NCBI GenBank assembly: GCA_905234985.1
Contig: CAJOJQ010000008.1
Location: forward strand, 1-64,000
DNA from: an uncultured Christensenellaceae bacterium
GTDB taxonomy: Bacteria; Bacillota; Clostridia; Christensenellales; Aristaeellaceae
Length of the DNA: 64,000 nt
Direction: 5' to 3'
The notes under the pieces are model-generated. The model did no database searches and was not told where the DNA came from. It saw only the letters and a program-made list of their open reading frames with translations. Positions 3,227 through 58,766 of this stretch are shown here, piece by piece. Position 1 is the first letter of the stretch. Each line of letters begins with the position of its first letter. A program made the translations under genes and the position numbers.

Positions 3227-3243
3227 TCGTCGCCATAAGAAAT

Positions 3244-3279
3244 ATACCGCCGGTTCGCGTGTCCGGCGGTATGTTTTTT
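3244..3279 (+). terminator. Intrinsic terminator after the mannosidase gene
   Basis: A perfect 10-bp stem (ATACCGCCGG at 3244-3253 with CCGGCGGTAT at 3263-3272) is followed by GTTTTTT. It reaches the last bases of the converging engB gene. Confidence 0.85.
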
Positions 3280-44839: not shown

Positions 44840-46114
44840 TTATTTCGATGTATCCGGGATGCGCAGGGTCGCCGCCGCGCCGCCGCCCGCCCGGGGCGTG
44901 ATGCTCAGCGTGCCCCCGCACATGCGTTCCAGGCGAAGCCGGGTGCTGGCCAGCCCCACGCCTTCCTCCATGTCGTCCGGGGGAAGAAAATCAGCGCCGT
45001 CGTTTTCCACGGTGATTTCGCTGCCGCCTTCCACCCTGCGGGTGCGGACGGTGATGGTCAGGCACTCGATTTCGGGGTCCATGCCGTGCTTCACGGCGTT
45101 TTCCACAATGGGTTGCAGGGTCAGCGGCGGCAGGAGGAAATCGGTGTGGGGCGTATCGAAGACCACGTTCAGCTTGTCCTCGAACCGGGCCTGCTCCACA
45201 GCTAAGTAAGCGCGGGTATGCTCCAATTCTTCCTCAAAGGGAATCGGCTCCCGCTTGATGACGGAACTGAACACCTTGCGCAGGTAGACGGAGAAATCCA
45301 GAATCACCTTCAGGCCCTGCTTCGGGTTCGCCTGGGTGATGTAGTAGATGCTCGCCAGGGCGTTGTAGATGAAATGCGGGCGCATTTGCAGGATACGGAT
45401 GTCAAATTCCTTGCGGGCGTTTTCCTCCGTCTGGCGGACGAAGATTTCCTGCTGGTCGCTCAGCAGGAACAGGAACATAAACAGGGCGGACGCCACCGTG
45501 CCGATGGCGATGGTGAGCAGGCCGTAGAAAAGCATCTGGATCAGGGTACAGAGCAGCGGCACCACCAGATACACCAGCAGCGCGATCCGCTGCTTTTTGT
45601 CCAGCTTGTTCCGCCTGCGGAACAGTCCCCAAAGGTTCATCGCCAGAATCAGGGCGGGCGGCACGAGAAGGATGGGATACCAGGGACCTCGTTCATAGAC
45701 GCCCGCGCTGTCGATGGTGTAAATCGCGGAAGAAAACTGGGTGTACACCAGCAGCGCAAGGTAAACGATCCATAGCCCCGCGATGGCGTCAAACAGGAAA
45801 CTGTTCCTCCATTTTTCGCCGCTCAGATGCAGCAGGTAGGCGGTCAGCAGGGGCATCAGCATGGACGACGAAAGAGATTCCAGAAATATGCTCCCCCGCA
45901 TGACCATGCCGGGGTTTTCCAAATAATCAACGATCTGACCGACGAAGATCGACCCGGTATACACGATCAGCAGCGAAAAGAAAAGGATGAAATACTGCCG
46001 CATCACCCGATCGACGGGCCGGTAAATCAGCGTCACCAGCAGCCCCAGCGCCATCATGGTCAGTCCCGCGATGCCCACTGCCAGGTTAATGAAATCCATC
46101 CAGCCGATGTTCAC
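44840..46114 (-). CDS. LytS-type membrane sensor histidine kinase
   Basis: A 424-residue kinase. Residues ~1-215 form seven or so membrane helices; then a short coiled segment, the His_kinase domain with phospho-acceptor H247 in QMRPHFIYNAL, and a HATPase domain (PIVENAVKHG N-box, GVGLASTRLRLERMCGG). It should autophosphorylate and pass phosphate to the regulator encoded directly upstream with a 4-bp overlap. Its membrane domain is clearly related to that of the SpoIIE-type phosphatase at 51 kb. Confidence 0.9.
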   Translation of the reverse strand: MNIGWMDFINLAVGIAGLTMMALGLLVTLIYRPVDRVMRQYFILFFSLLIVYTGSIFVGQIVDYLENPGMVMRGSIFLESLSSSMLMPLLTAYLLHLSGEKWRNSFLFDAIAGLWIVYLALLVYTQFSSAIYTIDSAGVYERGPWYPILLVPPALILAMNLWGLFRRRNKLDKKQRIALLVYLVVPLLCTLIQMLFYGLLTIAIGTVASALFMFLFLLSDQQEIFVRQTEENARKEFDIRILQMRPHFIYNALASIYYITQANPKQGLKVILDFSVYLRKVFSSVIKREPIPFEEELEHTRAYLAVEQARFEDKLNVVFDTPHTDFLLPPLTLQPIVENAVKHGMDPEIECLTITVRTRRVEGGSEITVENDGADFLPPDDMEEGVGLASTRLRLERMCGGTLSITPRAGGGAAATLRIPDTSK

Positions 46115-46728
46115 TTATTCGTCACCCCCCCCAATTGGAAAATACTGTCTGGGAGAGGATACTTGAGCTTGGGCAGGATCGCCATCACGTCGGCGGGCAG
46201 CAGGGGCTTGACCAGAAAGCCGCAGGCGTCCGTTTTCCAGGCTTCCAGGGCGTGTTCCGGCCAGGCGGTCAGGAACACCACGTTGGTTTCGGGATGGAGG
46301 GCAATCAGCTTTTCGCACAGCTCAAACCCATTGCTCCTGCCCAGTTCAATGTCCAGAATTGCCAAATTGATCGGGTTTTTCTTTGCGAACATCAGCGCTT
46401 CGGAGGGGCGAAGGAAGCCTGTGATTTCCGCGCCGGGCAGCGTTTCGCACAGCTCGCGCAAGCCCCCGGCCAGGTTCGGCTTTTCATCGTCCACCAGAAT
46501 GACCCGGGGAATGACAGGCTCTGTGCTGTCATCGGCCAGCAGGTCGGAAACATCCACGCCCAAGCACTCCGACAGACGGGGCATCAGCGTGATGTCCGGG
46601 CTGCGGGTGCCGTTTTCCCAGCGGGCGATGCTGGAACGGTCCACCATCATTTTCACCGCAAGCTGCTGCTGGGACAGGCCTTTCTCCGTACGAAACTGCC
46701 GCAGTCTTTCCGCGAAGTTGACAGTCAT
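46111..46728 (-). CDS. Response regulator with XRE-HTH first, receiver second
   Basis: A 205-residue regulator with reversed domain order. An XRE/Cro-type helix-turn-helix fills residues ~5-60 (QQQLAVKMMVDRSSIARWENG). A receiver domain fills ~74-190, with acidic pocket D80-D81-E82, phospho-acceptor D126 in LAILDIEL, T/S in FLTAWPE and K174 in FLVKP. LytS-type kinases usually pair with receiver-LytTR proteins, so this is atypical. The gene is first in its operon, under a promoter with a conserved upstream box that it may bind. Confidence 0.88.
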   Translation of the reverse strand: MTVNFAERLRQFRTEKGLSQQQLAVKMMVDRSSIARWENGTRSPDITLMPRLSECLGVDVSDLLADDSTEPVIPRVILVDDEKPNLAGGLRELCETLPGAEITGFLRPSEALMFAKKNPINLAILDIELGRSNGFELCEKLIALHPETNVVFLTAWPEHALEAWKTDACGFLVKPLLPADVMAILPKLKYPLPDSIFQLGGVTNK

Positions 46729-46781: not shown

Positions 46782-46850
46782 ATCTTAGCGAATATGACGC
46801 CCGGATTCAAGGGCTTTCAGCCAAAAAAGCGTGACTTTCTGGAACGGGGG
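46782..46850 (-). promoter_or_regulatory. Promoter with conserved upstream box (copy 1), two-component operon
   Basis: Minus strand: -10 TAAGAT (46782-46787), 17 bp, -35 TTGAAT (46805-46810), 9 bp, then the box at 46820-46846, which reads GCCAAAAAAGCGTGAC and TTTCTGGAACG on the plus strand. It matches the copies at 49.3 and 58.7 kb at 24 of 27 positions and stands at the same distance from the -35. Confidence 0.8.
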
Positions 46851-46863
46851 GGCAGCGTGAACT

Positions 46864-48015
46864 TCAATCATTCCGTTTCACCAGTTTCAGCACGTTTTCC
46901 CGGCAGACCTTCCGCACCACGTCGGGAGACAGCTTATCCAGCAGCTTGTAATACTTGACCACCTCCGCCGGGTAGGTGGCCCAATGGCCCACTTTGTCTG
47001 TGCCAATCAGTACCCGATCCTAGTATTTATCCATAAAGGCGGCCCAATCATCCAGGGAATCGCCGTCCATGTAATTGTTGGGAAACCGATCCAGAAAATA
47101 GTAGTCAAACACCAGCCACGAAATATCCACATACAGGTTGGGGTGGGTATCCAGCAGCTCGGAAGCAATAGTAACCAGATTTTGAATCTCCACACGCCGG
47201 GAAATGCCGATGTGCGCCCAAATGATATTGCAGTTTCGGTTATGGGCCAAGGCTTCTTCCAATTCCTTGCGGTACAGCACCCTTTCCTCGCTCTGGGCGG
47301 TGATATTGTGGTGTACCAGCACGGGCAGACCCTCTTCCGCCGCTAAATCGAATACGTCCAGGAACGCGGGGCTGTTCACGTGGGGCGCTTCGCCGTAGGT
47401 GAGGGCGGTCAGGTCGTCGTGGCGGCTCATGATCTCGCCGATGCCGCACCAGAAATTGGGGTACAGTCGGAGCAATTGCCGGATATGATCGGCGGCGAAG
47501 CGGTCGTTGCCATTGATGCCGCAGCAGAAGGGGAAGAAGCGCTTCCTGATTTCCAAGGGCTGGGCCAGCAGTTCTTCTGCCAGAATAAAGTCCGTGCCGG
47601 AATAGTAGTAGCACCGGCTGTCGTTGCTCAGATAGTAGGACGGGGCCGTTTCCATGGTGGCGTCCCACTGTTTAGCGATGGGCATCCCAAAAATCACGGC
47701 CTGGGACACGCCAGATGCGTCCATTGCCCGACACAAAGCCGGAAAACCGTCCGTATCCTCCAGGAAGTCTGTAAAATGCAGATGGCTGTCGATGAGGTCA
47801 TACCGGATTTTTTCATCCGGCTGCTCGATTTCGATTTGCCTGTCCGTGGCAAAAGCGATGCTGGACGGCGTGGCGAACGTCGCCGCGTCCGTTTTTTCGC
47901 TCAAGGCGACGCCCGGCAGGGACAGGGCGGCGGAAGCGGCTGCCGTGCCCGCGGCCATGGTTTTCAGGAAGCTCCTGCGGGTGAGCTTCAGTTGCTTGTC
48001 AAGTTTTTGTTCCAT
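46864..48015 (-). CDS. Tat-exported amidohydrolase interrupted by an in-frame TAG
   Basis: Metal-dependent hydrolase of the amidohydrolase_2 type with a twin-arginine signal (LTRRSFLKTMAAGTAAASAA). Catalytic-site segments include IDSHLHFTDF, GEIMSRHDD, PVLVHHN and IIWAHIGISRR. After 331 codons a TAG (47020-47022) follows DKY, but the frame then continues for 51 codons through DRVLIGTDKVGHW, which carries the conserved Asp metal ligand, to the family C-terminus and a TGA. A protein ending at the TAG would lack the ligand. Read-through, a pseudogene and a sequence error are the options. Cotranscribed with the pyrophosphatase. Confidence 0.75.
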
Positions 48016-48087
48016 ACAAACCTCCTTGAAGGAAAAATGAGCATATTCGTTCAGTCGTACAAGCAGCTTCAAAAATGGATATTCTCT

Positions 48088-49212
48088 TCACTCCTCCGGA
48101 TGCGCTTTCAGATAATCCGTGATTGCCGGAACCATGACCGTTTTCCGGCTTACGCTGGGCGTTATCACATAGGAGGTTCCGTCAAAAACGGCCGTTTCGC
48201 CAAAGGCGGCTTCAAGCACTTCGGCGGCGGCGTCATCCGAGGGAACAAGATACGCGATGGAAAGATCGTCGTGGGAAATGCTGACCTTCACGAACGCCAT
48301 CTCCATTCCGGTGGACGCCAGCACGGGCGGGAATAACGCTTTCATGCGCTCCGCCAAATCCTTCGCGCTTTCCTCGTCATAGACTTTCATGCAGGCAATG
48401 CCATATTTTCTGCCTTCGGTTTCATATTCTTTGTAATCGCTGAAGTAGATTTCCTCATCCGTCATTCCTTCATAGGAAAGCAGTGCCTTGTACATTTCAT
48501 TGTAAAAAGCGTCTGTATCGGAAATCCCCGCGATGCCGCTCAGTTCCCGAAGGGCCTCCCTGTCCGCGAAGGTCGTTTTTTCGGCTTGAAGATTCTTTGT
48601 GTCCGAAAGGATCGCACCCATCATGACAAGCGCGGTCTGCTGATCCGGCGAAAGCCCCGCATCCCGATACCGAAGCCAAATGATCGTCGCCGTGGCTCCT
48701 AAGGGCCTCGCGTCATAAATCAGCTGATTGCCGGTCTGCACGGTGCCGTCCCCGTGGTGATCAATGATGCTGATGATATGCGCGTCCTGTAAGCCGTCCG
48801 CCGATTGCAGGTATTCGCTGTGATCCACCAGCGCCATGTTGCGGCCGGAAGCGTCTTCAAGCAAAGGAGGCGCGTCCAGTTTGGCCGCGTCAAGGATATA
48901 TTGCGTTTCGTGATTGACGCTTCCAAGCACAACCGGCTGCGCGTCGTATCCCAGCGCCCGCAGAAGCGCCGCGTAAGCGATGGCGGAACCCACCGTATCG
49001 GAATCCGGGCTTTTATGCCCCGTCACATAGATCGGCCCTTCGATTTCGCCCAGGCCGTCCCACGCGCTGCGGTTGAGCAGGATATCCTTTCCCCGCTGGG
49101 CCTGATAACGCGAAGACGCTATGTTTTCGCCCACAAAATATCCGCCGACGCTCACCGCGATAAGGACAATGACCAGTACCGGTATGATCCGCCAATTTCT
49201 TTTTCCTTTCAT
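48088..49212 (-). CDS. Membrane-anchored family II (DHH) pyrophosphatase-like protein
   Basis: A 374-residue protein. After one N-terminal membrane helix (residues ~9-28), the fold of manganese-dependent inorganic pyrophosphatase begins: H66...D70-x-D72 in GHKSPDSDTVGSAIAYA, DHSEY at 130, D151-H-H in IIDHHGDG, then RPLGATATIIWL and ILSDTKNL, with a DHHA2-like end. All metal ligands of PpaC appear kept. Positive charges before the helix predict that the enzyme domain faces outward, unlike the cytosolic family members. Its promoter carries the conserved box. Confidence 0.85.
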   Translation of the reverse strand: MKGKRNWRIIPVLVIVLIAVSVGGYFVGENIASSRYQAQRGKDILLNRSAWDGLGEIEGPIYVTGHKSPDSDTVGSAIAYAALLRALGYDAQPVVLGSVNHETQYILDAAKLDAPPLLEDASGRNMALVDHSEYLQSADGLQDAHIISIIDHHGDGTVQTGNQLIYDARPLGATATIIWLRYRDAGLSPDQQTALVMMGAILSDTKNLQAEKTTFADREALRELSGIAGISDTDAFYNEMYKALLSYEGMTDEEIYFSDYKEYETEGRKYGIACMKVYDEESAKDLAERMKALFPPVLASTGMEMAFVKVSISHDDLSIAYLVPSDDAAAEVLEAAFGETAVFDGTSYVITPSVSRKTVMVPAITDYLKAHPEE

Positions 49213-49286
49213 CTTGAGAACACTCTCCTTTAGGCCGAAGGGACAATTCTGTCTGAATTTGTATGCACATTCTGCCGCTCATTATC

Positions 49287-49388
49287 ATTGTATAAAATTT
49301 ATCATCCATATTTCAAGCGGTTTTCGCCAAAAAGCCGTGACATTCTGGAACGTCCCCCCTTTTCCTTTGATGCAAAAAAGGCTATAAT
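49287..49388. promoter_or_regulatory. Divergent promoter region with conserved box (copy 2)
   Basis: Minus strand: TTGAAA (49311-49316), 18 bp, TACAAT (49287-49292), for the pyrophosphatase-amidohydrolase operon; the box lies at 49326-49352, 9 bp upstream of the -35. Plus strand: TATAAT (49383-49388) with only a poor -35 (TTTTCC near 49360) right beside the box, for the HD-kinase gene. One box may serve both directions. Confidence 0.78.
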
Positions 49389-49487
49389 TCCTTTGTGAAA
49401 CGAGAATAAAAAAGGAAAAACAGCTTTGAACACAGAATTACAATCCAATGAATTATCGGCCAATACGGTCAGGAAGGTTATCACTTT

Positions 49488-50969
49488 ATGATGAATATAC
49501 TGGAAGAAGCCATCATCTACGCCACCGTCATGCACTAGGGAAAGGTGCGCAAATTCGGGAACCGGCCCTTTATCCTGCATCCTTTGGAGGTGGCGCAGAT
49601 TTTGTCCACCATGACGGACGATGTGGAAATCATCACCGCCGGTATTCTCCACGACATCGTGGAGGATACGGACGGCACATTGGAAGAGATCGAAAAGCGC
49701 TTTGGGCAAAGGGTGGCGCTGATCGTGGCCTCCGAATCGGAGACGGATTATCCGGGAGAAGAGAAAAGCGCCACCTGGAAGCGGCGCAAAGAAGAATCCC
49801 TGAAGGTTTTGCGAAACAGCACGGATATTGGGGTGAAAATGCTGTGGCTTGCGGATAAATTGGCGAATATCCGCTCCCTGTCGGGCATGTATTCCGAACA
49901 GGGAGAAAAGATGTGGGAGCGGTTTCATCAGAGCGACCCGGAAATGCAGCGCTGGTACTACCGAGGCATCGCCGAGAACGTGGAGCTTTCCCTCAACAGG
50001 ACCGGCGCGTTCAAGGAACTGATCAAGCACCTCAACTTTATCTGGCCCGGCACCTTCGATTCGGAGAAAGCCCGGTACAGAAAGTATAAGGAGGTCAGCA
50101 TCGACGGCTGCAAGCTCCTGGGGCGCGGGGCCAAAGGGGACGTATACCGCTACGACGACGAATTGGTCATCAAAGTGTTCAATCAGAACAACACCTATCA
50201 CGATGTGGAACGGGAAATCGCTATCAGCCGCAAAGCGTTTATCTTAGGGATGCCCACGGCCATTTCCTTCGGTATCGTGTCCGTGGGAGACCGTTACGGG
50301 GCCATGTACGAGCTGGTGGATTCGGAAACCATCTCAAGCTGCATCGTCAGGTCTCCGGGACAGGTGGACGTTTACGCCCAGGGCATGGCCGATTTAGCGC
50401 GGCTGATCCACAGCGTCACGGCTGAGGAATGCGACGGTTTCCCGGACGCGAAGGAAAGAGTGCGGGATTATATCAGCGGCGGGATCGCGTGTGAAAACGA
50501 AGCCCTGGCCGAAAAGTGCATGAAGCTGATCGACGCGCTTCCAGAGACCTCCACCCTGATCCACGGCGATTTCCACACGGGCAACGTGTTCCTGCAAAAG
50601 GGAGAACCGCTTTTGATCGACATGGACAGGGTATCCCGGGGCCATCCCATCATTGAAATCAGCGATCTATACTACTTCTATGTGGTTTTGGGTGAGGACG
50701 ATCCCGCTGTGATCGAAAAGTTCATGGGCTTTTCGTATGAAACGGCGAAGCGGTTTTTCCGCGCTTTCCTTAAGCGCTATTTGGAAACGGAGGATGAAAA
50801 CAGGCTCCGGGAAGTAACGGAAAAAGCGTCGGTCGTCGCCTATACCCGGCTGATCCGCAAGCTCCGGAAGCATGGAACAGTATCCGAAGCCAACAAAATA
50901 ATCATTGACCGCTGTATCAACACCATCGCCGGACTGACAGAGAAGCTGGACACACTTGCTTTTTCGTAA
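49488..50969 (+). CDS. HD-domain / aminoglycoside-phosphotransferase-like kinase fusion, with in-frame TAG at codon 17
   Basis: Residues ~1-165 are an HD domain of the SpoT/ppGpp-hydrolase kind (FILHPLEVAQIL, AGILHDIVEDT, VKMLWLADKLANIRS). Residues ~205-430 are an APH-like kinase (LLGRGAKGDVYRYDDELVIKVF, LIHGDFHTGNVFL, LLIDMDRVSRGHP). The ATG at 49488 has AGGAAGG at the right spacing, but codon 17 is TAG (49536-49538) inside the conserved start of the HD domain, where relatives read MHxGQxRK. Without read-through, translation would need a poor restart such as the GTG at 49545. Substrates of both domains are unknown. Confidence 0.75.
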
Positions 50970-50987
50970 AAAATTGGAGGGATCCAC

Positions 50988-52451
50988 ATGATTTTCAGCG
51001 TCACCCCAGTGAATCTCATCAATATGCTGTTCATCGCGGCGGGCGTCGGCATTTGCGGCCTGTGCTTTTTGCAGATCACGGCCTCCGTCCATCTGCGGAA
51101 GGAGGTGCGGCGGTATTTCCAAATCTTCCTCCTGCTGCTCCTGCTTTACATCTCCACCCACCTGGCCCGGCAGCTCATGGACGGCCTGCCGGGGGCGGGA
51201 GTGCGCGCGGCGCTGTATATCGTCACGTTTATCGAAGTGCTGGCGGCGGGCTTCATGGCCCACATGATGTCCATGCTGGTGCTGTCCGTCTCCAGGGTCA
51301 AAGAAAAAAAGCCGCTGCTGATCGCCCTTGGGATCCTGCTGTTCGTTCACACGGCGCTTTTGATCGTGGGCCGGTGCTTCGACCTGATTTATACCTTTGA
51401 CGAAAGCAACATATACCACCGCGCCCCGCTGTATGTGCTTTCCAACCTTTGCCCGCTGATCATGCTGGTGATCGACGCGGTGCTGCTGCTTCGCTTCTGC
51501 GGGGAGGTGGACCGCCGGGTCAAATCCGCGCTTTGGGTCTATTTGATCGCGCCTATCGCGGCCATCGTGGTCCAAAGCGCTTTCTACGGGGTTCAGCTCA
51601 TCATTTTCGCCACGGTGGGCGCGGCGGTCTATTTGTTCTCCGTCATTGTGCAGAACCAGAACGAAGCCTATGAAAAGCAGCAGAAGGAAAGCTCCCGCAT
51701 CGAAACCGAGCTGACCATGGCCTCCAGCATTCAGGCGGATATGCTGCCCAGCATCTATCCCGCGTTCCCGGAACGCCCGGAATTTGATATTTACGCCTCC
51801 ATGGACCCCGCCAAGGAAGTGGGCGGCGATTTTTACGATTTCTTCCTGGTGGACGAGGATCATTTGGGTTTTGTCATGGCGGACGTGTCCGGCAAAGGCG
51901 TGCCCGCCGCGCTGTTCATGATGGCCTCCAAGATCATTCTGGCGAACAACGCCATGTTAGGCAAATCCCCCGCCACGGTGCTGACGGACGCCAACAACGC
52001 CATCTGCGCCAATAACCGGGAGGAAATGTTCGTTACAGTCTGGCTCGGCATCCTGGATTTGCGCACCGGCAGGGTCGTGGCCGCCAACGCGGGCCATGAA
52101 CGCCCGGTTTGGATGCACGCGGGCGGCGATTGCGAATTGATGGACGATCCTCACGGCTTCGTGGTCGGCGGTATGGAAGGAATGAAATACAAGGAGTACG
52201 AAATTCAGCTGAACCCCGGCGACAAGCTGTTCCTGTACACCGACGGCGTTCCCGAAGCGACGGACGCCAATGAAAAGCTGTTCGGCAACGAACGGATGCT
52301 GAGCGCCCTGAACGGGGTCAGGGACGCCGCACCGGAAGGCGTACTCAAGGGCGTGCGCCGGGCGGTGGACGCTTTCGTGAAGGACGCGGAGCAGTTCGAC
52401 GACCTGACCATGCTGTGCCTGCAGTACAGAGGCGGCGGGAAAACCGCCTGA
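50988..52451 (+). CDS. Membrane SpoIIE/RsbU-type PP2C phosphatase
   Basis: A 487-residue protein: residues ~1-225 form a multi-helix membrane domain related to that of the LytS-type kinase at 45-46 kb, then a coiled linker with ETELTMASSIQADMLPSIYP, then a SpoIIE-type PP2C domain (EVGGDFYDFFLV, MADVSGKGVPAALFM, LYTDGVPEATD). It should dephosphorylate a STAS-domain anti-anti-sigma factor in response to a membrane signal; a STAS gene lies 2.5 kb away. GGAGGG ribosome site, 18 bp after the HD-kinase gene. Confidence 0.9.
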   Translation: MIFSVTPVNLINMLFIAAGVGICGLCFLQITASVHLRKEVRRYFQIFLLLLLLYISTHLARQLMDGLPGAGVRAALYIVTFIEVLAAGFMAHMMSMLVLSVSRVKEKKPLLIALGILLFVHTALLIVGRCFDLIYTFDESNIYHRAPLYVLSNLCPLIMLVIDAVLLLRFCGEVDRRVKSALWVYLIAPIAAIVVQSAFYGVQLIIFATVGAAVYLFSVIVQNQNEAYEKQQKESSRIETELTMASSIQADMLPSIYPAFPERPEFDIYASMDPAKEVGGDFYDFFLVDEDHLGFVMADVSGKGVPAALFMMASKIILANNAMLGKSPATVLTDANNAICANNREEMFVTVWLGILDLRTGRVVAANAGHERPVWMHAGGDCELMDDPHGFVVGGMEGMKYKEYEIQLNPGDKLFLYTDGVPEATDANEKLFGNERMLSALNGVRDAAPEGVLKGVRRAVDAFVKDAEQFDDLTMLCLQYRGGGKTA

Positions 52452-52460
52452 CCGCGACAG

Positions 52461-52507
52461 AAAAAAAGAAAGAGGGGACGGTGTGTGCTTCCGCACAGAC
52501 CGTCCCC
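52461..52507 (-). terminator. REP-like hairpin terminator between converging genes
   Basis: GGGGACGGT (52474-52482) pairs with ACCGTCCCC (52499-52507), extended by TGTGC/GCACA around a TTCC loop. On the minus strand it runs into a long U-tract (A-rich 52461-52470), so it ends the S41 peptidase transcript. The GGGGACG core recurs in the palindrome at 55.3 kb. Confidence 0.8.
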
Positions 52508-52521
52508 TGCGTATGCTCGGA

Positions 52522-54276
52522 TCAGTTGCCGTAGAATTCGTGCATCTTCACGCCGATGTCATCCAGATCGTACAGGCCGCTGTAATCCTTGTTCCCCTCC
52601 GCATCCTCCTGAACGAGGTAATAATCCGCGCCGGAGCCGCTGTCCGCGTCGGAGCCGTCGGCCCTGAAGATCTTTCTGGGCGAAGACAGCATGAAATAAT
52701 GGCAGCCTTCCGCGTAGCATCTGGACAAAGCGCATGAACCGCCGCCGCTGGTGTCGCCCAGCACCGCGATGCCGTTATCCCGCGCCAGGCACGGAAGCAG
52801 GTTCCCGCTTGAAAAAGCCAGCGGCGTGCTGAGGACCGCGAAGTTGAGGTCATACGCGAGGCCGCAGTCCTTTTCGTCAAAAACGCCGTCCAAATTCAGG
52901 TCGAGGGTGACTTTCTCGCAGATGATATTCCCCGTTGTTGTGAACAGCGTGCGCAGATCGAACACGTTGGAATGCGCTTTCCCGTTCATCATGATCGTAA
53001 AGATGTAAGCCGCCACGTCCGAGCTTCCGCCCCCGCTGCAGGTCAAATCGACGGCGAAATTTTTGATCCCGTTTTCCACTGCCCAGTCCAGCGACCACTT
53101 GAACGGCTCCACCACCTCGTCGACGAAGGAGTCGAACACAAACACGCCGGTATCCCCGCTGCGAATAAAGCGCGCGTCCTCGCCCCACGATTTTACGAAC
53201 TCATATTTTTCATACGCGGGGTCTCTCAGCGGCGTGATCATCCGATTCAGCGTCTCTCTCTCCTGCATGTTCATCATCGCTTTCATCATTGCCATCACGT
53301 AGTCGGGATGCTCCGCATACTTTTTTTCCATCGCTTCATACAGGGGCGACGACGTGTCCAATAAGACCAGGAACATTTCCAAGGTCAGGGACGTATGGCC
53401 GCCGTCGAAGAATACCTCGTCCAGATACATCAGCCCGATGAAGAAGTCCATCAAATCATTGGATTTGAGCAGCGCCTTGGCGGTCCGGGTGCCGTCGCTG
53501 TATTCGTCCAGCGCTTTGTCAAAGCCTTTTTCCCGAATGCTTTCGGCGATCTTGGCTTTTTCCGGCGCGCCGTAGAAGTGATCCATGCAAAAGCACAGCT
53601 CGCGGTAGGTGAAATCGGTGGCGGCGGGGTCCCGCTCCATGCTCTGGTACAGGGGGCTGCGGTCGAAATAGCCGTCCACGCTGGCGCTTTCATAGGTATA
53701 GACATAGTAAAGGTTTCCGTCTATATATTCGGCGGAATTATACGTGATGGAAACCAGATCGGAGAGCGTCGGGAGCGGAAGATAGACCCTGCCCTGGTAT
53801 TCGATCAGATCAATGCCATACGCGCCCAAATCAAGCGTCAGGCTTTTCGTTTCGCCCTCGATGACCGGCTTCGCCGTGATGGCATAATCGTTGGCCATGG
53901 CGGAACCTTTGTTGTCCACATTGCTGAGAACAAAAAACTCAAAGGCGTCAAAATACAGGGTATCCTTTTCGGTATCAGCCACCATGACGCCGTTTTCCGA
54001 GGTGATGGAATACGTGCCGTCGGCGTTCTTCAACGTGCTGAAATCCACCGTATAGATATGGTCAAAGAAATCCTCCGCGTCCAGGTACGGGATCGTGGGG
54101 AGCTGCTGTGTGAACAGGGCGTCCGTCGTCGCTGTGCGGTCCATACCGTACAGATACGTGGGCAGGCTCCTTACCTGAATATTCCCGCCGTCATTTTCCG
54201 CCAGAACCGGCAGCGCGGAAGAAAACGCCGACGCCAGGAGCAGCACCGCTAAGAACACGCTTACCCGTCGCTTCAT
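52522..54276 (-). CDS. Secreted S41-family peptidase
   Basis: A 584-residue exported protein: signal peptide (residues 1-26), an N-terminal region with a copper-amine-oxidase-N-like segment (VYLPLPTLSDLVSITYNSAEY), and a C-terminal S41 protease domain (residues ~390-550) with FAVDLTCSGGGSSDVA and the nucleophile region around S489/S490 in AFSSGNLLPCLARDNG. There is no PDZ domain, unlike CtpA. It may trim extracellular or surface proteins. Downstream of the STAS and putative anti-sigma genes. Confidence 0.82.
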   Translation of the reverse strand: MKRRVSVFLAVLLLASAFSSALPVLAENDGGNIQVRSLPTYLYGMDRTATTDALFTQQLPTIPYLDAEDFFDHIYTVDFSTLKNADGTYSITSENGVMVADTEKDTLYFDAFEFFVLSNVDNKGSAMANDYAITAKPVIEGETKSLTLDLGAYGIDLIEYQGRVYLPLPTLSDLVSITYNSAEYIDGNLYYVYTYESASVDGYFDRSPLYQSMERDPAATDFTYRELCFCMDHFYGAPEKAKIAESIREKGFDKALDEYSDGTRTAKALLKSNDLMDFFIGLMYLDEVFFDGGHTSLTLEMFLVLLDTSSPLYEAMEKKYAEHPDYVMAMMKAMMNMQERETLNRMITPLRDPAYEKYEFVKSWGEDARFIRSGDTGVFVFDSFVDEVVEPFKWSLDWAVENGIKNFAVDLTCSGGGSSDVAAYIFTIMMNGKAHSNVFDLRTLFTTTGNIICEKVTLDLNLDGVFDEKDCGLAYDLNFAVLSTPLAFSSGNLLPCLARDNGIAVLGDTSGGGSCALSRCYAEGCHYFMLSSPRKIFRADGSDADSGSGADYYLVQEDAEGNKDYSGLYDLDDIGVKMHEFYGN

Positions 54277-54295
54277 GTGAAAGCCTCCTTCATTG

Positions 54296-54326
54296 CACAG
54301 GGGGCGTTTCGAGACCCCTGTGTTTT
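54296..54326. repeat. REP-like palindrome CACAGGGG...CCCCTGTG (copy 1)
   Basis: CACAGGGG (54296-54303) and CCCCTGTG (54315-54322) flank an 11-nt loop, followed on the plus strand by TTTT. It lies in the 55-bp gap between two minus-strand genes, so its T-run is on the wrong strand to end their transcript. Confidence 0.65.
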
Positions 54327-54331
54327 GTGGA

Positions 54332-54937
54332 TCAATTCATCGTTTTCACGATAATCATTTCTACGGCGTCGCCGCTGATAGCCACCTTCACGTCGTCAGC
54401 AACCTTTGCCACAACAGATTTTTCCAGTTCGTCCCAGGCTTCCTTTGCCTGAGCGTCTTTTTTTCCTATACGGGAAGAAAGGACTGCCTGATACTGGGAC
54501 ATAGACCATTCCCAATTCAAATCAGCCGCCGCGGTATACTCATACATTTCGGGCAGCATCAGCGGAGAGGACAGCGCGCGAACGGCCGCGTCCGCCCCGG
54601 TATAGAAGAAGCCGCGTATCCGGTCCATCAGACCGCGTTTCGCTTCGTTTTTCCCGGACGTTGAAGCGGAAAGCAGTTCTTTCTTCATATCCGGGCTCAC
54701 GTTCGCTCTCACTTTCAGGTGTAATTCATAAGTATTGAAATGATCTTCGATCCAGAATCTTCCTTCCGTTTCCCCGGTGATGGATCGCATCATCCCCATG
54801 GTTTCTTCCGTCAGCAGACGCAGATGCAGCGCGTTCTTCCCGGAAAGCTCCTTGTAAGCGGAGACCTTTTCAGCCAGATGAAGCGCCGAGGCCATTTGAA
54901 CGCCTTGGCTGGAAACCGTAATCACATCCGTTTTCAT
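54332..54937 (-). CDS. Unrecognised protein next to a STAS gene; possible RsbW-like partner
   Basis: A 201-residue cytosolic protein. The first ~90 residues (KNALHLRLLTEETMGMMRSI, then FNTYELHLKVRANV) have the helix and strand order of the N-terminal half of RsbW/SpoIIAB-type ATPases, where LLxEE precedes the N-box, but I see no clear N or G box. The C-terminal part is helical (EYTAAADLNWEWSMSQYQAV). Its position 11 bp after a STAS gene, with a PP2C phosphatase nearby, makes a diverged anti-sigma role plausible but unproven. Confidence 0.65.
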   Translation of the reverse strand: MKTDVITVSSQGVQMASALHLAEKVSAYKELSGKNALHLRLLTEETMGMMRSITGETEGRFWIEDHFNTYELHLKVRANVSPDMKKELLSASTSGKNEAKRGLMDRIRGFFYTGADAAVRALSSPLMLPEMYEYTAAADLNWEWSMSQYQAVLSSRIGKKDAQAKEAWDELEKSVVAKVADDVKVAISGDAVEMIIVKTMN

Positions 54938-54948
54938 GCCGATTCACC

Positions 54949-55245
54949 TTATACAATGGTCAGAATATCAGAAAAGCCGGTCACATCAAACACTTCGTTC
55001 ACGATTTCATTGGCGTTCGTGATTTTCATTCCGCCCTTCCGGCTCATGATTTTATGGGCGGAGAGCAGCACCCGCAGTCCGGCGGAAGAAATGTAGTCCA
55101 GGCTGGCTAAGTCCAGCGTCAGGGCGTCCACAGCATCCAGGCTGGCGTTCAGTTCTTTTTCCAGCTCCGGGGCGGTCATGGTGTCCAGGCGGCCCTCCAG
55201 GGCGATTTCCAGGCCGGTTCCGTTCAGCTTCTTTGAGATCGTCAT
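54949..55245 (-). CDS. STAS-domain anti-sigma factor antagonist
   Basis: A 98-residue RsbV/SpoIIAA-type protein: GRLDTMTAPELEKEL, LDLASLDYISSAGLRVLL with the phospho-Ser in the ISSAG motif, and FDVTGFSDILTI at the end. It normally binds an anti-sigma factor when dephosphorylated by a PP2C phosphatase. The start at 55245 is set by GAAGGAGG. It precedes the unrecognised 201-residue protein and is the natural substrate candidate for the membrane phosphatase at 51 kb. Confidence 0.92.
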   Translation of the reverse strand: MTISKKLNGTGLEIALEGRLDTMTAPELEKELNASLDAVDALTLDLASLDYISSAGLRVLLSAHKIMSRKGGMKITNANEIVNEVFDVTGFSDILTIV

Positions 55246-55265
55246 TGTCTTTTCCTCCTTCAATT

Positions 55266-55308
55266 ACACAGGGGACGTCCCCTGTGTTTTGGGAATCTTC
55301 CCCTGTGC
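55266..55308. repeat. REP-like palindrome ACACAGGGGAC/GTCCCCTGTGT (copy 2) plus half copy
   Basis: A perfect 22-bp palindrome (55266-55287) is followed after 10 bp by another half (CTTCCCCTGTGC, about 55297-55308). It is in the gap between a VOC gene and the STAS gene. The same CACAGGGG/GGGGACG words occur at 54.3 and 52.5 kb. Confidence 0.7.
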
Positions 55309-55310
55309 TT

Positions 55311-55688
55311 TTACTTGTGGTTCTTGATATGCTCGCAAACGTCGAGAATGAACCCGGTGGGAGAAACGAGGTAGGCGTATTTGCTGCTGGCGGTGGTGCC
55401 GGGCGCGAAGCCCTTCGCTTCCCGGAAGCCATGAGCCATAAAGAAGTCGTAGGCTTCCTCGAAATTGTCCACGTTGATGCGGATAGCCGAATAGGTCTGG
55501 GGAATGACGGGCACCTCCACCACGTCCACGTGGAAGCCGCCCTCGTTCTTCATCCGATGGGCCGAAAACTCCACGTCCACGTTTTCCGCCTTGTTGTGGG
55601 TCTGCTGAAAGCCCAGGTCTTCAAAGAGCTTGATGGTGGATTCCCCGTCCTTGGTGATGATGGACGGGTTAAAGGTCGTGATTTTCAT
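55311..55688 (-). CDS. VOC-superfamily protein (paralogue 1)
   Basis: A 125-residue glyoxalase/dioxygenase-fold protein: MKITTFNPSIITKDGESTIK at the start, RINVDNFEEAYDFFMAHGF at the centre and SPTGFILDVCEHIK at the end. It is closely related to two more VOC genes at 56.4 and 57.0 kb. The classic metal ligands are not clear, so ligand binding may be more likely than catalysis. The ATG at 55688 behind AAAGGAG is used. Confidence 0.85.
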   Translation of the reverse strand: MKITTFNPSIITKDGESTIKLFEDLGFQQTHNKAENVDVEFSAHRMKNEGGFHVDVVEVPVIPQTYSAIRINVDNFEEAYDFFMAHGFREAKGFAPGTTASSKYAYLVSPTGFILDVCEHIKNHK

Positions 55689-55765
55689 GTTGTTTTCTCC
55701 TTTGCGTGACGTATTTTGACTGTGCCGCACAGCGCCGGGGCCGCGCGGCACAGCAAAAATCCGGT

Positions 55766-56341
55766 TTAGACCGCCGTTTTGGAAAGCTCCATCAAGCCTT
55801 TCAGCTGATTGGAAATGACCTCGTTGAGCTTTTGGGTGATGGCCTTGTTGATCTCCGTGGAGGGATACGGGCCCGCATACCCGGTCTTTTCGGAGAACTC
55901 CTTGAGGGAGGCCATGACGGCGGCGTTCAACTCCTGGCCGAACTTCCTGATCGCTTCGGCGGCGGGCGCGTCCGCCTTGTGCATGCACTCCGCGTACAGC
56001 TCTTTGTTCTCCCGGATCACCTTTATCATTTCCGGGGAAATGTCCAGGGGCTGCTTCATGCTGCCCTCCAGGGCGGCGAAGTTTTTCACGATCATCTCGT
56101 CCATCTGCAGGCAGATTTGCTTGCTGAGGGCGGAAAGGGACTTGGCGGTCTGCTCGTCGTCCGTCAGGGTCATGCCCTTGGAGGCGGCAAATTCCTTGAT
56201 GGAGCCCATGACCAGCTTGTTCAGCTGTTCGCTGACCTGCCGGGTGCCCTCCTTGACCTTGTCGTTCTTCGCGGTCAGAAACGCTTTGAACTCCGCCGCG
56301 AACTCCTTGTCACTGGTAAGACGCTTGATGAATTCCTTCAT
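55766..56341 (-). CDS. Helical cytosolic protein with an internal duplication
   Basis: A 191-residue, almost all-helical protein of no family I recognise, with no signal peptide. Two similar stretches can be aligned: SEQLNKLVMGSIKEFAASKG (~residues 37-56) and GQELNAAVMASLKEFSEKTG (~134-153), each followed by a helix with KQICLQMDEM or QKLNEVISNQ. It may have arisen by duplication of a ~95-residue unit. It lies between VOC paralogues 1 and 2 with a strong GAGGAGG site, so it likely belongs to the same transcript. Confidence 0.75.
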   Translation of the reverse strand: MKEFIKRLTSDKEFAAEFKAFLTAKNDKVKEGTRQVSEQLNKLVMGSIKEFAASKGMTLTDDEQTAKSLSALSKQICLQMDEMIVKNFAALEGSMKQPLDISPEMIKVIRENKELYAECMHKADAPAAEAIRKFGQELNAAVMASLKEFSEKTGYAGPYPSTEINKAITQKLNEVISNQLKGLMELSKTAV

Positions 56342-56386
56342 GATTGTTTCCTCCTCGTATTTTTTCCCCTCTTATGAGAAGGGTTT

Positions 56387-56773
56387 TTATTCGTGATCCC
56401 GGATGTGCTCGCCCACGTTGATGGCAAAGCCGGTGGGAGACACCATCATGGTGGCGATAGAAGAACCGGTATGGGTGATCTTCTCGCCCTGGGCGTTCTT
56501 GAAGCCCTTTTCTTCCAGCATTTTGTAGGCTTCGTCAAAGTCGCGCACGTTCATGCGGATGGCGGTGATGTCCTTGGGAACGGGGGCCTGGGTGATGTCC
56601 ACGTGGAAGACTTTGCCGTCCTCGCCGGTGTAGCGCATCCGCACACTGGTGATGTCCTCGTCGTTGATGCCGGTCTTGGTGTGGCGGCGTTCAAAGCCCA
56701 GGGCCTCGAACAGGGCGATGACGGATTCCGCGTCCTTGGTGATGATGCAGGGGTTGAAAGCGGTGATAGTCAT
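56387..56773 (-). CDS. VOC-superfamily protein (paralogue 2)
   Basis: A 128-residue VOC protein, a clear paralogue of its neighbours: MTITAFNPCIITKDAESVIA, FERRHTKTGIND, RMNVRDFDEAYKMLEEKGF and SPTGFAINVGEHIRDHE. It starts behind GGAGGAAA. The array points to local tandem duplication. Confidence 0.85.
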   Translation of the reverse strand: MTITAFNPCIITKDAESVIALFEALGFERRHTKTGINDEDITSVRMRYTGEDGKVFHVDITQAPVPKDITAIRMNVRDFDEAYKMLEEKGFKNAQGEKITHTGSSIATMMVSPTGFAINVGEHIRDHE

Positions 56774-56851
56774 GGTGGTTTCCTCCTTGTTTTTTGATTC
56801 TGTTTTGTAATGATTCAGTCCCGCAGGATTTGCGCGTACTGTCCAGGTTTT

Positions 56852-56956
56852 CGACCGTAGGGGCGGATATCATCCGCCCGAACCCATTATCCGCTTGAAA
56901 ACCCAACAAAAACAACATGTTGCGAGGGCGGGCGGATATTATCCGCCCCTACGACC
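56852..56956. repeat. Palindromic element with GGGCGGATATYATCCGCCC arms
   Basis: The left arm (56852-56879; CGACCGTAGGGGCGGATATC and on) and right arm (56930-56956; ends CCCCTACGACC) are inverted copies about 50 bp apart, and each arm is itself a near-perfect palindrome. This layout is like the small non-coding hairpin elements scattered in clostridial genomes. It sits in the 235-bp gap between VOC paralogues 2 and 3. Confidence 0.75.
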
Positions 56957-57008
56957 GATAAACCAAACAAATCGGGTAAAACCCACAGGACAGAATAAAT
57001 ACCTTCGT

Positions 57009-57386
57009 TTAGTCGTGTTCCTTGATGTGCTGGGACACCGCCAGGATGAACCCGGTGGCGGATACCATGATGCTGAACCTGGAAGAACCAGTATCCACGG
57101 TTTCATTGGCGGCGGCGTGGCGCGCTTTATGGAAGCCGCGTGCCTCCAGGAAGGCGATGGCTTCCTCTAAGTTGTCCACGTTCATGCGGATCATCATCCA
57201 TTCGCCGTCGCCCTGGGAAACGTCTAAATGGAAGCCGTTTGCGTCCTTCATGCGCACGTCGGTGACGCTGTCCTTGCCGATGCCCTCCTTGGTATGGCGT
57301 CGTTCAAAGCCTAATTCCTCGAACAGCTTGATGGCGGACGCAGGGTCCTTGGTGGCGATCAACGGGTTGAAGCTGGTGATTTTCAT
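57009..57386 (-). CDS. VOC-superfamily protein (paralogue 3)
   Basis: A 125-residue VOC protein: MKITSFNPLIATKDPASAIK, FERRHTKEGIGKD, RMNVDNLEEAIAFLEARGF and SATGFILAVSQHIKEHD. The FERRHTK segment is shared with paralogue 2, showing recent common origin. It is preceded by the stub of a fourth copy. Confidence 0.85.
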   Translation of the reverse strand: MKITSFNPLIATKDPASAIKLFEELGFERRHTKEGIGKDSVTDVRMKDANGFHLDVSQGDGEWMMIRMNVDNLEEAIAFLEARGFHKARHAAANETVDTGSSRFSIMVSATGFILAVSQHIKEHD

Positions 57387-57414
57387 GGTTGTTTTCCCCC
57401 TCGTTCGTTTTTGA

Positions 57415-57462
57415 CTATTTGATGTGTTTTACCACCGAGATGCAGAAGCCGGACGGGGCCTT
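57415..57462 (-). pseudogene. C-terminal stub of a fourth VOC paralogue
   Basis: Read on the minus strand directly after the binding-protein stop: K-APSGFCISVVKHIK then TAG. This matches the VOC C-termini SPTGFILDVCEHIK and SATGFILAVSQHIK. All upstream VOC sequence is gone, so a deletion joined the end of a VOC gene to the binding-protein gene. Confidence 0.72.
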
Positions 57463-58491
57463 TTATTTCAGCGTTACCGGAACCAGCAGATCGCTGTAAT
57501 AAGGCTGCGTGGCAATTGTCCCATCCGGGATGTCGATCTTCTGAAGCTTTTCATAATCAATGCCTGCACTGATGGCCAGCATGATTTCATTTGTTTTTTC
57601 GGGAGCGACTTTCTGACGGCTTACATGCTCTTCTTTTGAAAATCTTCCGCCTTTTGATCTCCCGTCCACTCCGTTTGTCCAGAATACAAAATCGACGTTT
57701 CCGGAGAAGAGGGCGAAGGTTCGGCCCGCGCTGGCTACCTGCACAAGTTTAAAGTTCTTGTTCAGCCTTCTGCCAAGCTCCGCCAGAATAGCGGTGTTGA
57801 AGCCCGCGGCGTTGCCGTGCTCGTCCACAAAGTCCATGGGCGGCAAATCGCCCGTCACGGCGACCCGCACGGTTTCCCCGTCCGTCTGGGTAAACGCCAC
57901 GGGTTGCGGATCGTCAGCCGTTGCATCCGTGATGTAGGCCTTGATCAGGGCGTCCAGCGTCCCATCCTCTTTCATTGCCGTGATTGCCTGGTCGAACTCA
58001 TCCCGGAGATCGGTTCTGTCCTCCATCATCAGGAACGAATAGCCGACGCCCAGTCGGTATGCGACCGCCTCTGTTAATGCTTCCGCCCCTTCCAGATCAA
58101 AGGAGCCTCTGACGGTCATATTGTCGATGCGGGCGCAAAGATAGTCGGCGGTGCATTGCGGAACTTCCGCGGATTCGATGTTCCCGGCGTTCAGCGCCAT
58201 GAGCATGGCGTCCAGCGTGTCGTAAAAGACGATCTTCGGCTCAACGGTCGAATCCAGAATACCCTCGCCTGGGGTATTGCTATGGAATGCGCCATGCTCC
58301 GTGAGGTACTGGAGCGCGATACTTTTGCCCTTTACCTTTGTGAGGTATTCTTCCTCCGTCATGTTCAGCAGGGTCAGCGTGCCCAGCACCATTTCCGGTG
58401 CGTCGGCGGGGGTTTCTTCGGCATTCGTCCCGCAGACGCACAGCGTCAGGGCCAGGATCAGCGCAAGGGTGAGTGCGATCAGTTTTTTCAT
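57463..58491 (-). CDS. Exported solute-binding (family 3) protein with apparently reordered lobes
   Basis: A 342-residue protein with a signal peptide (MKKLIALTLALILALTLCVC). Residues ~50-190 resemble the second half of a family 3 amino-acid binding domain (GKSIALQYLTEHGAFHSNT; LRDEFDQAITAMKEDGTLDA). Residues ~205-290 resemble the first half of such a domain (VRVAVTGDLPPMDFVDEHGNAAG). So it has a C-lobe-type part before an N-lobe-type part, from permutation or deletion between tandem domains. No transporter genes are adjacent, so it may be a receptor. It lies downstream of a boxed promoter. Confidence 0.75.
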   Translation of the reverse strand: MKKLIALTLALILALTLCVCGTNAEETPADAPEMVLGTLTLLNMTEEEYLTKVKGKSIALQYLTEHGAFHSNTPGEGILDSTVEPKIVFYDTLDAMLMALNAGNIESAEVPQCTADYLCARIDNMTVRGSFDLEGAEALTEAVAYRLGVGYSFLMMEDRTDLRDEFDQAITAMKEDGTLDALIKAYITDATADDPQPVAFTQTDGETVRVAVTGDLPPMDFVDEHGNAAGFNTAILAELGRRLNKNFKLVQVASAGRTFALFSGNVDFVFWTNGVDGRSKGGRFSKEEHVSRQKVAPEKTNEIMLAISAGIDYEKLQKIDIPDGTIATQPYYSDLLVPVTLK

Positions 58492-58543
58492 GGTGGTTTC
58501 CTCATTTGAAAAATGTATTTCTCGGCGCGCTCCCCTCGCGGGT

Positions 58544-58678
58544 TCAGCCCCGCGCGGCCGCCGGAAGAACGAAGTCGCTGATCTCGAAGTGTTCGGGATC
58601 GTCCACGGTGCATTGGATGCCGCATTCCGCTAAAATATCCACAAAGCGGTTCGTATACATCCGAATCCGTATGCGCAT
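58544..58678 (-). CDS. Possible 44-residue leader protein
   Basis: A short frame starting at 58678, just after the predicted transcription start, encoding YTNRFVDILAECGIQCTVDD and PEHFEISDFVLPAAARG before TGA. Composition and codon use look protein-like, but the ribosome site is weak (ATAGGATG). It could be a regulatory leader peptide, a small protein or the tail of a deleted gene. Confidence 0.4.
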   Translation of the reverse strand: MRIRIRMYTNRFVDILAECGIQCTVDDPEHFEISDFVLPAAARG

Positions 58679-58701
58679 TCATCTGACATCCTATCACAAA
58701 T

Positions 58702-58766
58702 ATTGTAAAAGAATCCCCCTACGTATTCAACCCATTTGCGCCAAAAAGCCGTGACATTCTGGAACG
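58702..58766 (-). promoter_or_regulatory. Promoter with conserved upstream box (copy 3)
   Basis: Minus strand: -10 TACAAT (58702-58707), 17 bp, -35 TTGAAT (58725-58730), 9 bp, box at 58740-58766. The box is identical to copy 2 over 27 bp, including the word GCCGTGACATTCTGGAACG. It would drive the small leader frame, the binding-protein gene and perhaps the VOC array. Confidence 0.82.

Follow-up and report, generated by a model that had tools for sequence, protein, structure and literature searches.

Transcriptional regulators of the XRE family are often repressors. In the 434/C-protein-type XRE/Cro-CI repressors, an HTH_3 domain recognises a palindromic operator that lies over a promoter and whose half-sites are spaced by about one turn. 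In LytS/YesM-type two-component systems, a PF06580 kinase is found beside a receiver protein, the regulators being of the LytTR or AraC type, which use direct repeats. Class I activator sites such as those of CRP are located near -61.5. The system described here was found in the genome of a rumen bacterium, in a window of 64,000 nt (the whole stretch of DNA that was analysed). Its regulator, an XRE-receiver protein, resembles the 434/C-protein types by its HTH_3 domain, by the palindrome and half-site distance of its predicted operator and by covarying recognition-helix residues that align with those of a 434-type repressor, but it is fused to a C-terminal receiver, a histidine kinase gene is adjacent, and the site stands upstream of the -35s. 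The PF06580 kinase beside a receiver protein recalls the LytS/YesM systems, from which the locus differs by its XRE DNA-binding domain, placed before the receiver, and by a palindrome instead of direct repeats.

The XRE-receiver response regulator (205 aa; 46111-46728, minus strand) carries HTH_3 at residues 9-63 (Pfam, E 6.6e-16) and Response_reg at residues 76-184 (E 1.7e-15). Only HTH and receiver families matched it (five at E <=0.01), with no LytTR or AraC DNA-binding domain. In a structure model with a mean pLDDT of 88.8, the HTH region comprises five helices (3-16, 20-27, 31-39, 46-56 and 60-63). Across 20 aligned sequences, receiver residues D81, D126, T154 and K174 are invariant and D80 is nearly so. 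The acidic pair, the phospho-acceptor Asp, the Thr and the Lys, together with the adjacent kinase gene, are what is expected from the sequence of a response regulator. This putative partner histidine kinase (424 aa; 44840-46114, minus strand; PF06580 His_kinase and HATPase_c in Pfam) is encoded by a gene that shares 4 nt with the XRE-receiver gene, and a homolog of it adjoins the XRE-receiver gene in four other genomes (G003, G020, G025 and G028). Among the matches listed for the regulator in NCBIfam (25 of 36), no model reached its cut-off. Full-text searching gave no paper with XRE-receiver proteins as the subject of its title or of the start of its abstract, and the accessible part of PMC3532121 contains no description of the family. 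XRE-receiver proteins seem to be poorly described so far.

A sequence-only reading of the window had reported three near-identical 27-mers, two of them identical and the first differing at 3 of 27 positions, and a scan of the window allowing up to three mismatches confirmed them: box 1 at 46820-46846 (three mismatches), box 2 at 49326-49352 and box 3 at 58740-58766 (no mismatch each), all taken on the minus strand. No further copy was found elsewhere in the window at this threshold, and 100 dinucleotide shuffles of the window gave no match (mean 0, maximum 0). As a common core, the boxes contain an imperfect palindrome of 17 bp, which reads CGTTCC-N5-GTCACG on the minus strand and lies at 46830-46846 in box 1 (CGTTCCAGAAAGTCACG), 49336-49352 in box 2 and 58750-58766 in box 3. 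Within the 27-mer, family-wide conservation is limited to this palindrome, the remainder being a T-tract conserved mainly in the clade of the window. An RNA element at the boxes was also considered and dropped, because an Rfam search of the window matched two tRNAs only.

The promoters proposed along with the boxes were recovered as well. At all three boxes, 9 nt separate the end of the 27-mer from a minus-strand TTGAAW -35, namely TTGAAT (46805-46810) for box 1, TTGAAA (49311-49316) for box 2 and TTGAAT (58725-58730) for box 3, followed by the -10s TAAGAT (46782-46787, spacer 17), TACAAT (49287-49292, spacer 18) and TACAAT (58702-58707, spacer 17), respectively. The TAAGAT of the XRE-receiver promoter is present in all four orthologous promoters (G000, G003, G020 and G025). 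What had been missed is that box 2 also has a plus-strand promoter in divergent orientation, with TTTTCC (49360-49365) and TATAAT (49383-49388, spacer 17), an arrangement also seen in relatives. Box 1 is the predicted operator of the XRE-receiver/kinase operon. On the far side of box 2 stand the minus-strand genes of a DHH/DHHA2 pyrophosphatase-like protein (374 aa; 48088-49212), whose N-terminus was judged hydrophobic by eye, and, downstream, of an amidohydrolase (Amidohydro_2, TAT-like signal; 47020-48072). On its near side, the plus strand encodes a protein with a RelA/SpoT-like HD domain and an APH-type kinase (474 aa; 49545-50969), then a SpoIIE-type phosphatase (487 aa; 50988-52451). The first intact gene past box 3 encodes an SBP_bac_3 solute-binding protein (57463-58491, minus strand), and VOC genes follow.

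In the whole 3.57-Mb genome, a 19-nt part of the box searched with up to three mismatches retrieved the three window boxes and two weaker places (contigs C11 and C30), and a reversed-pattern control retrieved none. The idea of a local regulon holds for the window boxes, but with the weaker candidate on contig C30 the regulon may extend beyond this locality. Among 29 genomes of the genus, the 26-nt pattern without mismatch was found only in G000, G003, G020 and G025 (14 sites), which are exactly the genomes with an 83-100% identical XRE-receiver protein. The expected link between boxes and XRE-receiver gene was thus seen across the genus with one exception, G006, in which a one-mismatch box is found at the pyrophosphatase ortholog without a close XRE-receiver ortholog. 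Orthologs of box 1 lie upstream of the XRE-receiver gene in G003, G020 and G025, and those of box 2 at the corresponding gene in G025 and G006; the amidohydrolase ortholog of G003 is immediately preceded by a box. The ortholog of box 3 in G025 (L039) is followed by the orthologous operon. Among these 15 sites (the 14 exact ones and that of G006), a far -35 with TTG is retained in 14 and a near promoter is present in 12; the far side of G003:C24:15101 lacks the TTG. Random spacing to promoters, which the sequence-only reading had set against its own proposal, is not what the strong copies show.

To describe the site across the family, 91 non-redundant XRE-receiver genes were kept from 109 usable ones, 18 being dropped as more than 90% identical to a kept gene over their first 150 residues, position by position; a further match of the family, at the start of a contig (G326:C242), was left out. 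A de novo motif search in the 91 upstream regions reached a log-likelihood gain of 715, versus 145-154 in four shuffled sets (25 EM restarts for the real data, 10 for the shuffles). A site of at least 14 bits was present within about 250 nt upstream of 59 of the 91 genes, and 47 of 63 sites show a TTG at 35-38 nt from the box start and 47 of 63 a TAnnnT at 58-61, the counts of 59 and 63 not being held out as the matrix was trained on the same 91 sequences. In Markov-simulated DNA, only 2 scores of at least 14 bits were obtained in 661,734 bases, on both strands. Among the 32 genes without such a forward site in the 250 nt upstream, 11 have a site of at least 16 bits elsewhere in the examined stretch or on the other strand, and 21 have none on either strand of that stretch, 12 of which belong to a divergent group (35-44% identity). 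Four relatives from other families (three among 396 genomes in the order/class-level search and one among 391) had not been used to build the motif: L195 and L201 carry a site at the expected place (28 and 19 bits), L198 a weak one (11 bits), and in L197 no site was found. In the source genome, the second XRE-receiver gene (contig C21) is accompanied by a palindrome of a different sequence, and a 15-nt pattern of this palindrome is matched without mismatch only at that gene. A match to the C21-type pattern on contig C15 scores 10.0 bits. Paralogous boxes differ in their half-sites yet retain the layout.

This layout often includes two divergent promoters per box, with a near -35 located 4-7 nt away and a far -35 located 18-21 nt away. 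Among 153 sites, 78 have a near promoter, 74 a far one and 50 both, as for box 2 of the window. The swapped controls for the two layouts gave 2 and 2, and 3000 random positions gave 21 near, 11 far and 1 both. This set comprises sites whose 17-bp core reaches at least 13 bits in whichever orientation scores better; it takes in the training promoters and counts related species separately unless the 67-mer is identical. The geometry of the promoters first listed was right, and the picture of one promoter per box has to be extended, the operator often being common to two divergent promoters. With a box centre at about -62 to -66, sigma-70 type hexamers and a fixed spacing, the far promoter resembles those with class I sites; in contrast to these, the box frequently serves a divergent near promoter as well (centre about -48 to -51), the polarity being fixed. 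Proteins with a GGDEF domain face 16 of 59 boxes. In a Pfam scan of 20 proteins (19 divergent genes and the STAS protein of the window), four had no match (L097, L126, L055 and L098).

Judged from this geometry, the regulator probably activates rather than represses. A protein that binds the box and represses, or that has opposite effects on the two promoters (activation of one, repression of the other), is an unlikely alternative. The HTH resembles repressors and restriction-controller proteins (434, SinR, C.AhdI), and the effects on the two promoters could differ because their distances to the box differ. However, in the layouts that entered the near and far counts, the box lies upstream of the -35 without any overlap, which makes simple steric repression unlikely, and several near -35s in the clade of the window are weak (TTTTCC, TTTACT), as expected of activator-dependent promoters.

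We then compared the recognition helix with the letters of the box. The outer letter is G in all 37 proteins with Arg31 and in none of the 22 with another residue at this position, and residue 36 tracks the inner letters. Mean mutual information with the box did not single out the HTH (0.84 on average for HTH columns versus 0.88 for receiver columns, receiver residue 82 ranking first); for this reason, a single-residue split was also used (groups of at least 8), in which, over all protein positions, the outer letter is best predicted by Arg31 and the inner pair by Arg36. Both residues fall in helix 31-39 of the structure model, and their counterparts in the alignment with the 434-type repressor dh434 are residues 28 and 33, positions with base contacts. 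By eye, the residue-31 rule is followed by 8 of 9 further genes with a site elsewhere in the examined stretch or on the other strand (two L128 genes with one common site were excluded as ambiguous), and it is broken by the distant site of L132, which is 1.9 kb away from a gene of the NH type. The other half-site is looser, with a G in 10 of the 22 non-Arg31 proteins. On the receiver-domain tree, two changes suffice to explain residue 31 and two to explain the outer base, so that the phylogenetic independence of the helix-box link is weak (1-2 independent pairs of switches, sign test not significant).

Very probably, the 17-letter box is where the XRE-receiver regulator binds: orthologous promoters, diverged paralog boxes and the helix-to-base correlation give good support both to this protein as the binder, as first suggested, and to an autoregulatory site at its operon. 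Binding by another, unlinked regulator present in all these genomes, the XRE-receiver gene being merely a target, would fit the box of G006 and is otherwise improbable, as the box varies with the gene it precedes, paralogs of one genome differ in their box, its letters follow the recognition-helix residues, and exact boxes track the close XRE-receiver ortholog within the genus. We rejected as barely conceivable a passive or mobile repeat happening to carry a promoter, despite the identity of boxes 2 and 3 over 27 nt, since conservation mainly concerns the 17 bp and the promoter hexamers with a fixed spacing on both sides, box positions are orthologous across species, paralogous boxes diverge in half-sites with the layout kept, and the genome-wide search showed no copies at random places.

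The reading that we retain with good confidence is that the box is the dimer operator of the XRE-receiver regulator, acting on up to two back-to-back promoters. The boxes, their geometry and conservation and the helix-base correlation can be read directly in the sequences; from these we infer that the protein binds the box, dimerises, is controlled by phosphorylation and activates rather than represses. It would read DNA through its N-terminal phage-repressor-type helix-turn-helix, and would presumably be switched by the adjacent kinase phosphorylating the C-terminal receiver. A dimer would bind the 17-bp imperfect palindrome; in each half-site, the outer G would be read by residue 31 and the inner letters by residue 36. 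The far promoter would be activated from a class I activator position, and the near promoter on the opposite side would probably be activated as well. Box 1 would thereby control the regulator's own operon, box 2 the pyrophosphatase/amidohydrolase operon and the divergent HD-kinase/SpoIIE operon, and box 3 the solute-binding/VOC operon. It is plausible, with less assurance, that a single polar cassette (near promoter, palindrome, far promoter) drives two divergent operons simultaneously, each from its own distance, in a whole family of kinase-paired XRE-receiver regulators, and that a code at residues 31 and 36 insulates the paralogs. For the outer base, this code would pair Arg with G, Lys, His or Asn with T, and perhaps Gln with A and Ser with C; for the inner pair, Arg with TC/GA, Lys with GG and Ser with GT.

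For XRE-receiver proteins, the operator, the layout of the promoters and a probable recognition code were obtained directly from sequence. If the code is true, the targets of such a regulator would be readable from its protein sequence. The targets of XRE-receiver proteins become predictable, for example the GGDEF proteins facing boxes, and the family would provide a natural collection of two-component regulators that are insulated from one another and have bidirectional promoters.

The 27-mer that the sequence-only reading placed at three positions is present in the window (46820-46846, box 1, before the operon of a response regulator with an XRE-type helix-turn-helix (HTH), hereafter XRE-receiver; 49326-49352, box 2, before the pyrophosphatase/amidohydrolase genes; 58740-58766, box 3, before the binding-protein/VOC genes), with 3, 0 and 0 differences from the sequence of copies 2 and 3, and no match was found in 100 shuffles of the window. 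On the minus strand its core reads CGTTCC-N5-GTCACG, whose half-sites CGTTCC and CGTGAC form an imperfect palindrome. The fixed promoter geometry also holds: TTGAAW begins exactly 36 nt from the start of the box in all three cases, a T-tract separates the core from this -35, and TAAGAT, TACAAT and TACAAT follow after 17, 18 and 17 nt for boxes 1, 2 and 3, respectively. In the whole 3.57-Mb genome, a 19-nt part of the box (≤3 mismatches) matched only two weaker places besides the three boxes, and the reversed 19-nt pattern matched none under the same threshold.

The box 3 promoter runs into a 44-codon remnant (58491-58720, minus strand). Its leader is 93% identical over 168 nt to part of a related stretch (L039), where it matches the 3' end of a 438-aa gene (2182-3498) and the spacer after it; this gene sits behind the box orthologous to box 3. 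The window genome appears to have lost the first gene of the box 3 operon by deletion and retained the operon's promoter. A candidate fourth box, CGTTCCAAAATGTCACA, was seen in the window genome (L045 10152-10168, i.e. G000:C30:19151-19167) and in a genome of the same genus (L041 5796-5812, G025:C257). On the side where the -35 would be closest it carries TTGATT, with a -10 of TAAAAT in G025 and a weak one in the window genome, and downstream lies a conserved stretch, interrupted by stops in each of the three forward frames, that is possibly a small RNA or leader.

Among the 29 genomes of the genus, a 26-nt pattern of the box matched without mismatch at 14 sites in four genomes (G000, the window genome, and G003, G020 and G025), with one mismatch in G006, and with two or three mismatches at four more places in G002, G020 and G028, of which the G020 one (C176) looks promoter-like by eye. 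Besides the window genome, only G003, G020 and G025 possess a close XRE-receiver ortholog (83-88% identical). The link between box and regulator stands for exact boxes, found in precisely these four genomes, but not for G006, whose sole XRE-receiver match is a 52% paralog. Boxes precede the XRE-receiver orthologs (G003, G020, G025), the pyrophosphatase orthologs (G025, G006), the amidohydrolase ortholog (G003) and the VOC/binding-protein operon orthologs (G003, G025). The far-position TTG is kept in 14 of the 15 boxes with at most one mismatch (exception, G003:C24:15101).

XRE-receiver genes were detected in 61 of 308 genomes of the family, and 109 had usable upstream DNA (91 non-redundant). 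De novo search of these 91 regions returned the motif caAgggggtGTtCCAGA.TGtCAca; its log-likelihood gain was 715, and four shuffled sets reached 145-154. The box scores at least 8 bits in 63 regions and at least 14 bits in 59, while a Markov null gave two matches of at least 14 bits in 661,734 bases, both strands. Counted from the start of the box, TTG occurs at 35-38 nt in 47/63 and TAnnnT at 58-61 nt in 47/63. Between paralogs, the layout is constant and the half-sites vary: the second XRE-receiver gene of the window genome (contig C21) has its own box, TGTGGCAGAATGCCACA, whose 15-nt pattern matches exactly at that gene only, and once elsewhere with one mismatch. No forward site of at least 14 bits was found within 250 nt for 32 of the 91 genes; for 11 of them a site of at least 16 bits is present on the opposite strand or at another place in the stretch (one is shared by two L128 genes), and 21 have no such site, 12 of these belonging to a diverged group (35-44% identity). 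In stretches L175, L176 and L177, diverged XRE-receiver genes (~38-43% identical) are paired head to head; L175 and L177 were scanned, and no box of at least 16 bits was found there.

The opposite flank of the box carries a conserved CAAGGGG, which is a -35 in reverse orientation. On that strand, this near side has TTG starting at 4 or 5 nt in 42/59 and TAnnnT at 27-30 nt in 37/59. Selection by nothing but the 17-bp core gave 153 sites across all the DNA retrieved; 78 of them had the near promoter (offset 4-7), 74 the far one (18-21) and 50 both. Searching for each geometry on the wrong side yielded 2 and 2, and among 3000 random positions the counts were 21, 11 and 1. The polarity of the box is therefore strong, the near promoter lying on the GTTCC side and the far one on the GTGAC side. 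By the same near-promoter criterion, 12 of the 15 boxes of the window clade qualify. The near promoter of box 2 (TTTTCC-N17-TATAAT) points toward the HD-kinase/SpoIIE operon. The exceptions are box 3, with no near-side -10 and no divergent gene nearby, and box 1 and its G003 ortholog, which lie close to where the amidohydrolase gene ends. In the window this amidohydrolase frame stops ~174 nt before box 1 (46847-47020), and its G003 ortholog ~10 nt before its box; the window gene may have a frameshift or be misassembled near the 3' end. The XRE-receiver gene is on the near side instead in L101 and L135, and behind a near-side GGDEF gene in L073 and L044. In L037, two boxes stand back to back (8525, minus strand; 8714, plus strand) with ~170 nt between them, and both neighbouring operons (DegT aminotransferase; VOC/binding protein) possess a far promoter as well as a near one.

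Concerning targets, divergent frames were taken as the longest open frames starting ≤450 nt from the box. For the 59 boxes, 16 such frames form a single cluster with an invariant GGDEF motif (two checked against Pfam). Other divergent genes tested encode amidohydrolases, carboxylesterases, a DUF3089 protein, a RelA/SpoT-domain protein, a HAD hydrolase and an ABC protein; of 20 proteins scanned against Pfam, 4 matched nothing. Near-side genes of the window clade include MATE and ABC transporters, an aldo/keto reductase and a GGDEF protein, and a DegT aminotransferase is a far-side target. In the window (49545-52451), a fusion protein of a RelA/SpoT-type HD domain and an APH-type kinase is followed by a SpoIIE phosphatase, and a STAS protein gene lies at 54949-55263; this set looks like a partner-switching module.

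The variable half-sites follow two residues of the regulator. Residue 31 is Arg for 37 of 59 promoters, and all 37 carry G as the outer base of the promoter-proximal half-site; with His, Lys, Asn, Asp or Ser, this base is T or C in 22/22 (Fisher 1e-16, relatedness ignored). The other half-site is more loosely linked (G in 36/37 vs. 10/22). When all protein positions were split by one residue, Arg31 predicted the first base best (runner-up, receiver residue 88, 8e-12) and Arg36 the inner pair TC (37/44 vs. 0/15; 4e-9; runner-up, 3e-5). Both residues fall within helix 31-39 of a structure model, and they align opposite positions 28 and 33 of 434-type repressors, in the usual numbering. Positions 28 and 33 of 434 repressor contact bases. 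Nine genes have an unambiguous site on the opposite strand or at another place in the stretch; eight of them obey the residue-31 rule and L132 breaks it (by eye). Ser36 pairs with GTGTC half-sites in L147 and the class-level relative L201, and Gln31 (L198) with an outer A in a weak site (11 bits). On the receiver-domain tree, residue 31 and the outer base change only twice each, an independent-pairs test has one to two pairs, and mean mutual information ranks receiver residue 82 first and is not higher in the HTH (0.84) than in the receiver (0.88); relatedness thus accounts for part of the correlation. A residue-to-base recognition code of the XRE-receiver family is probable.

In literature searches covering few subscription journals, no listed paper described XRE-receiver regulators or their operator, nor did passages of PMC3532121. 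This is weak evidence of novelty.

The receiver retains its acidic residues, the phospho-acceptor Asp126, Thr154 and Lys174, and a PF06580 kinase gene directly follows the XRE-receiver gene (46111-46728, minus strand). In the simplest working model, this kinase would phosphorylate the receiver domain, and an XRE-receiver dimer would bind the box and recruit RNA polymerase to both promoters. Steric repression would be the alternative to the activator site first proposed; since the box does not overlap the -35s in the counted layouts, we infer that, given binding, activation is quite likely. As a whole, the box observation holds and its first interpretation is mostly correct; the box is very probably a family-wide operator, in many cases for two promoters.
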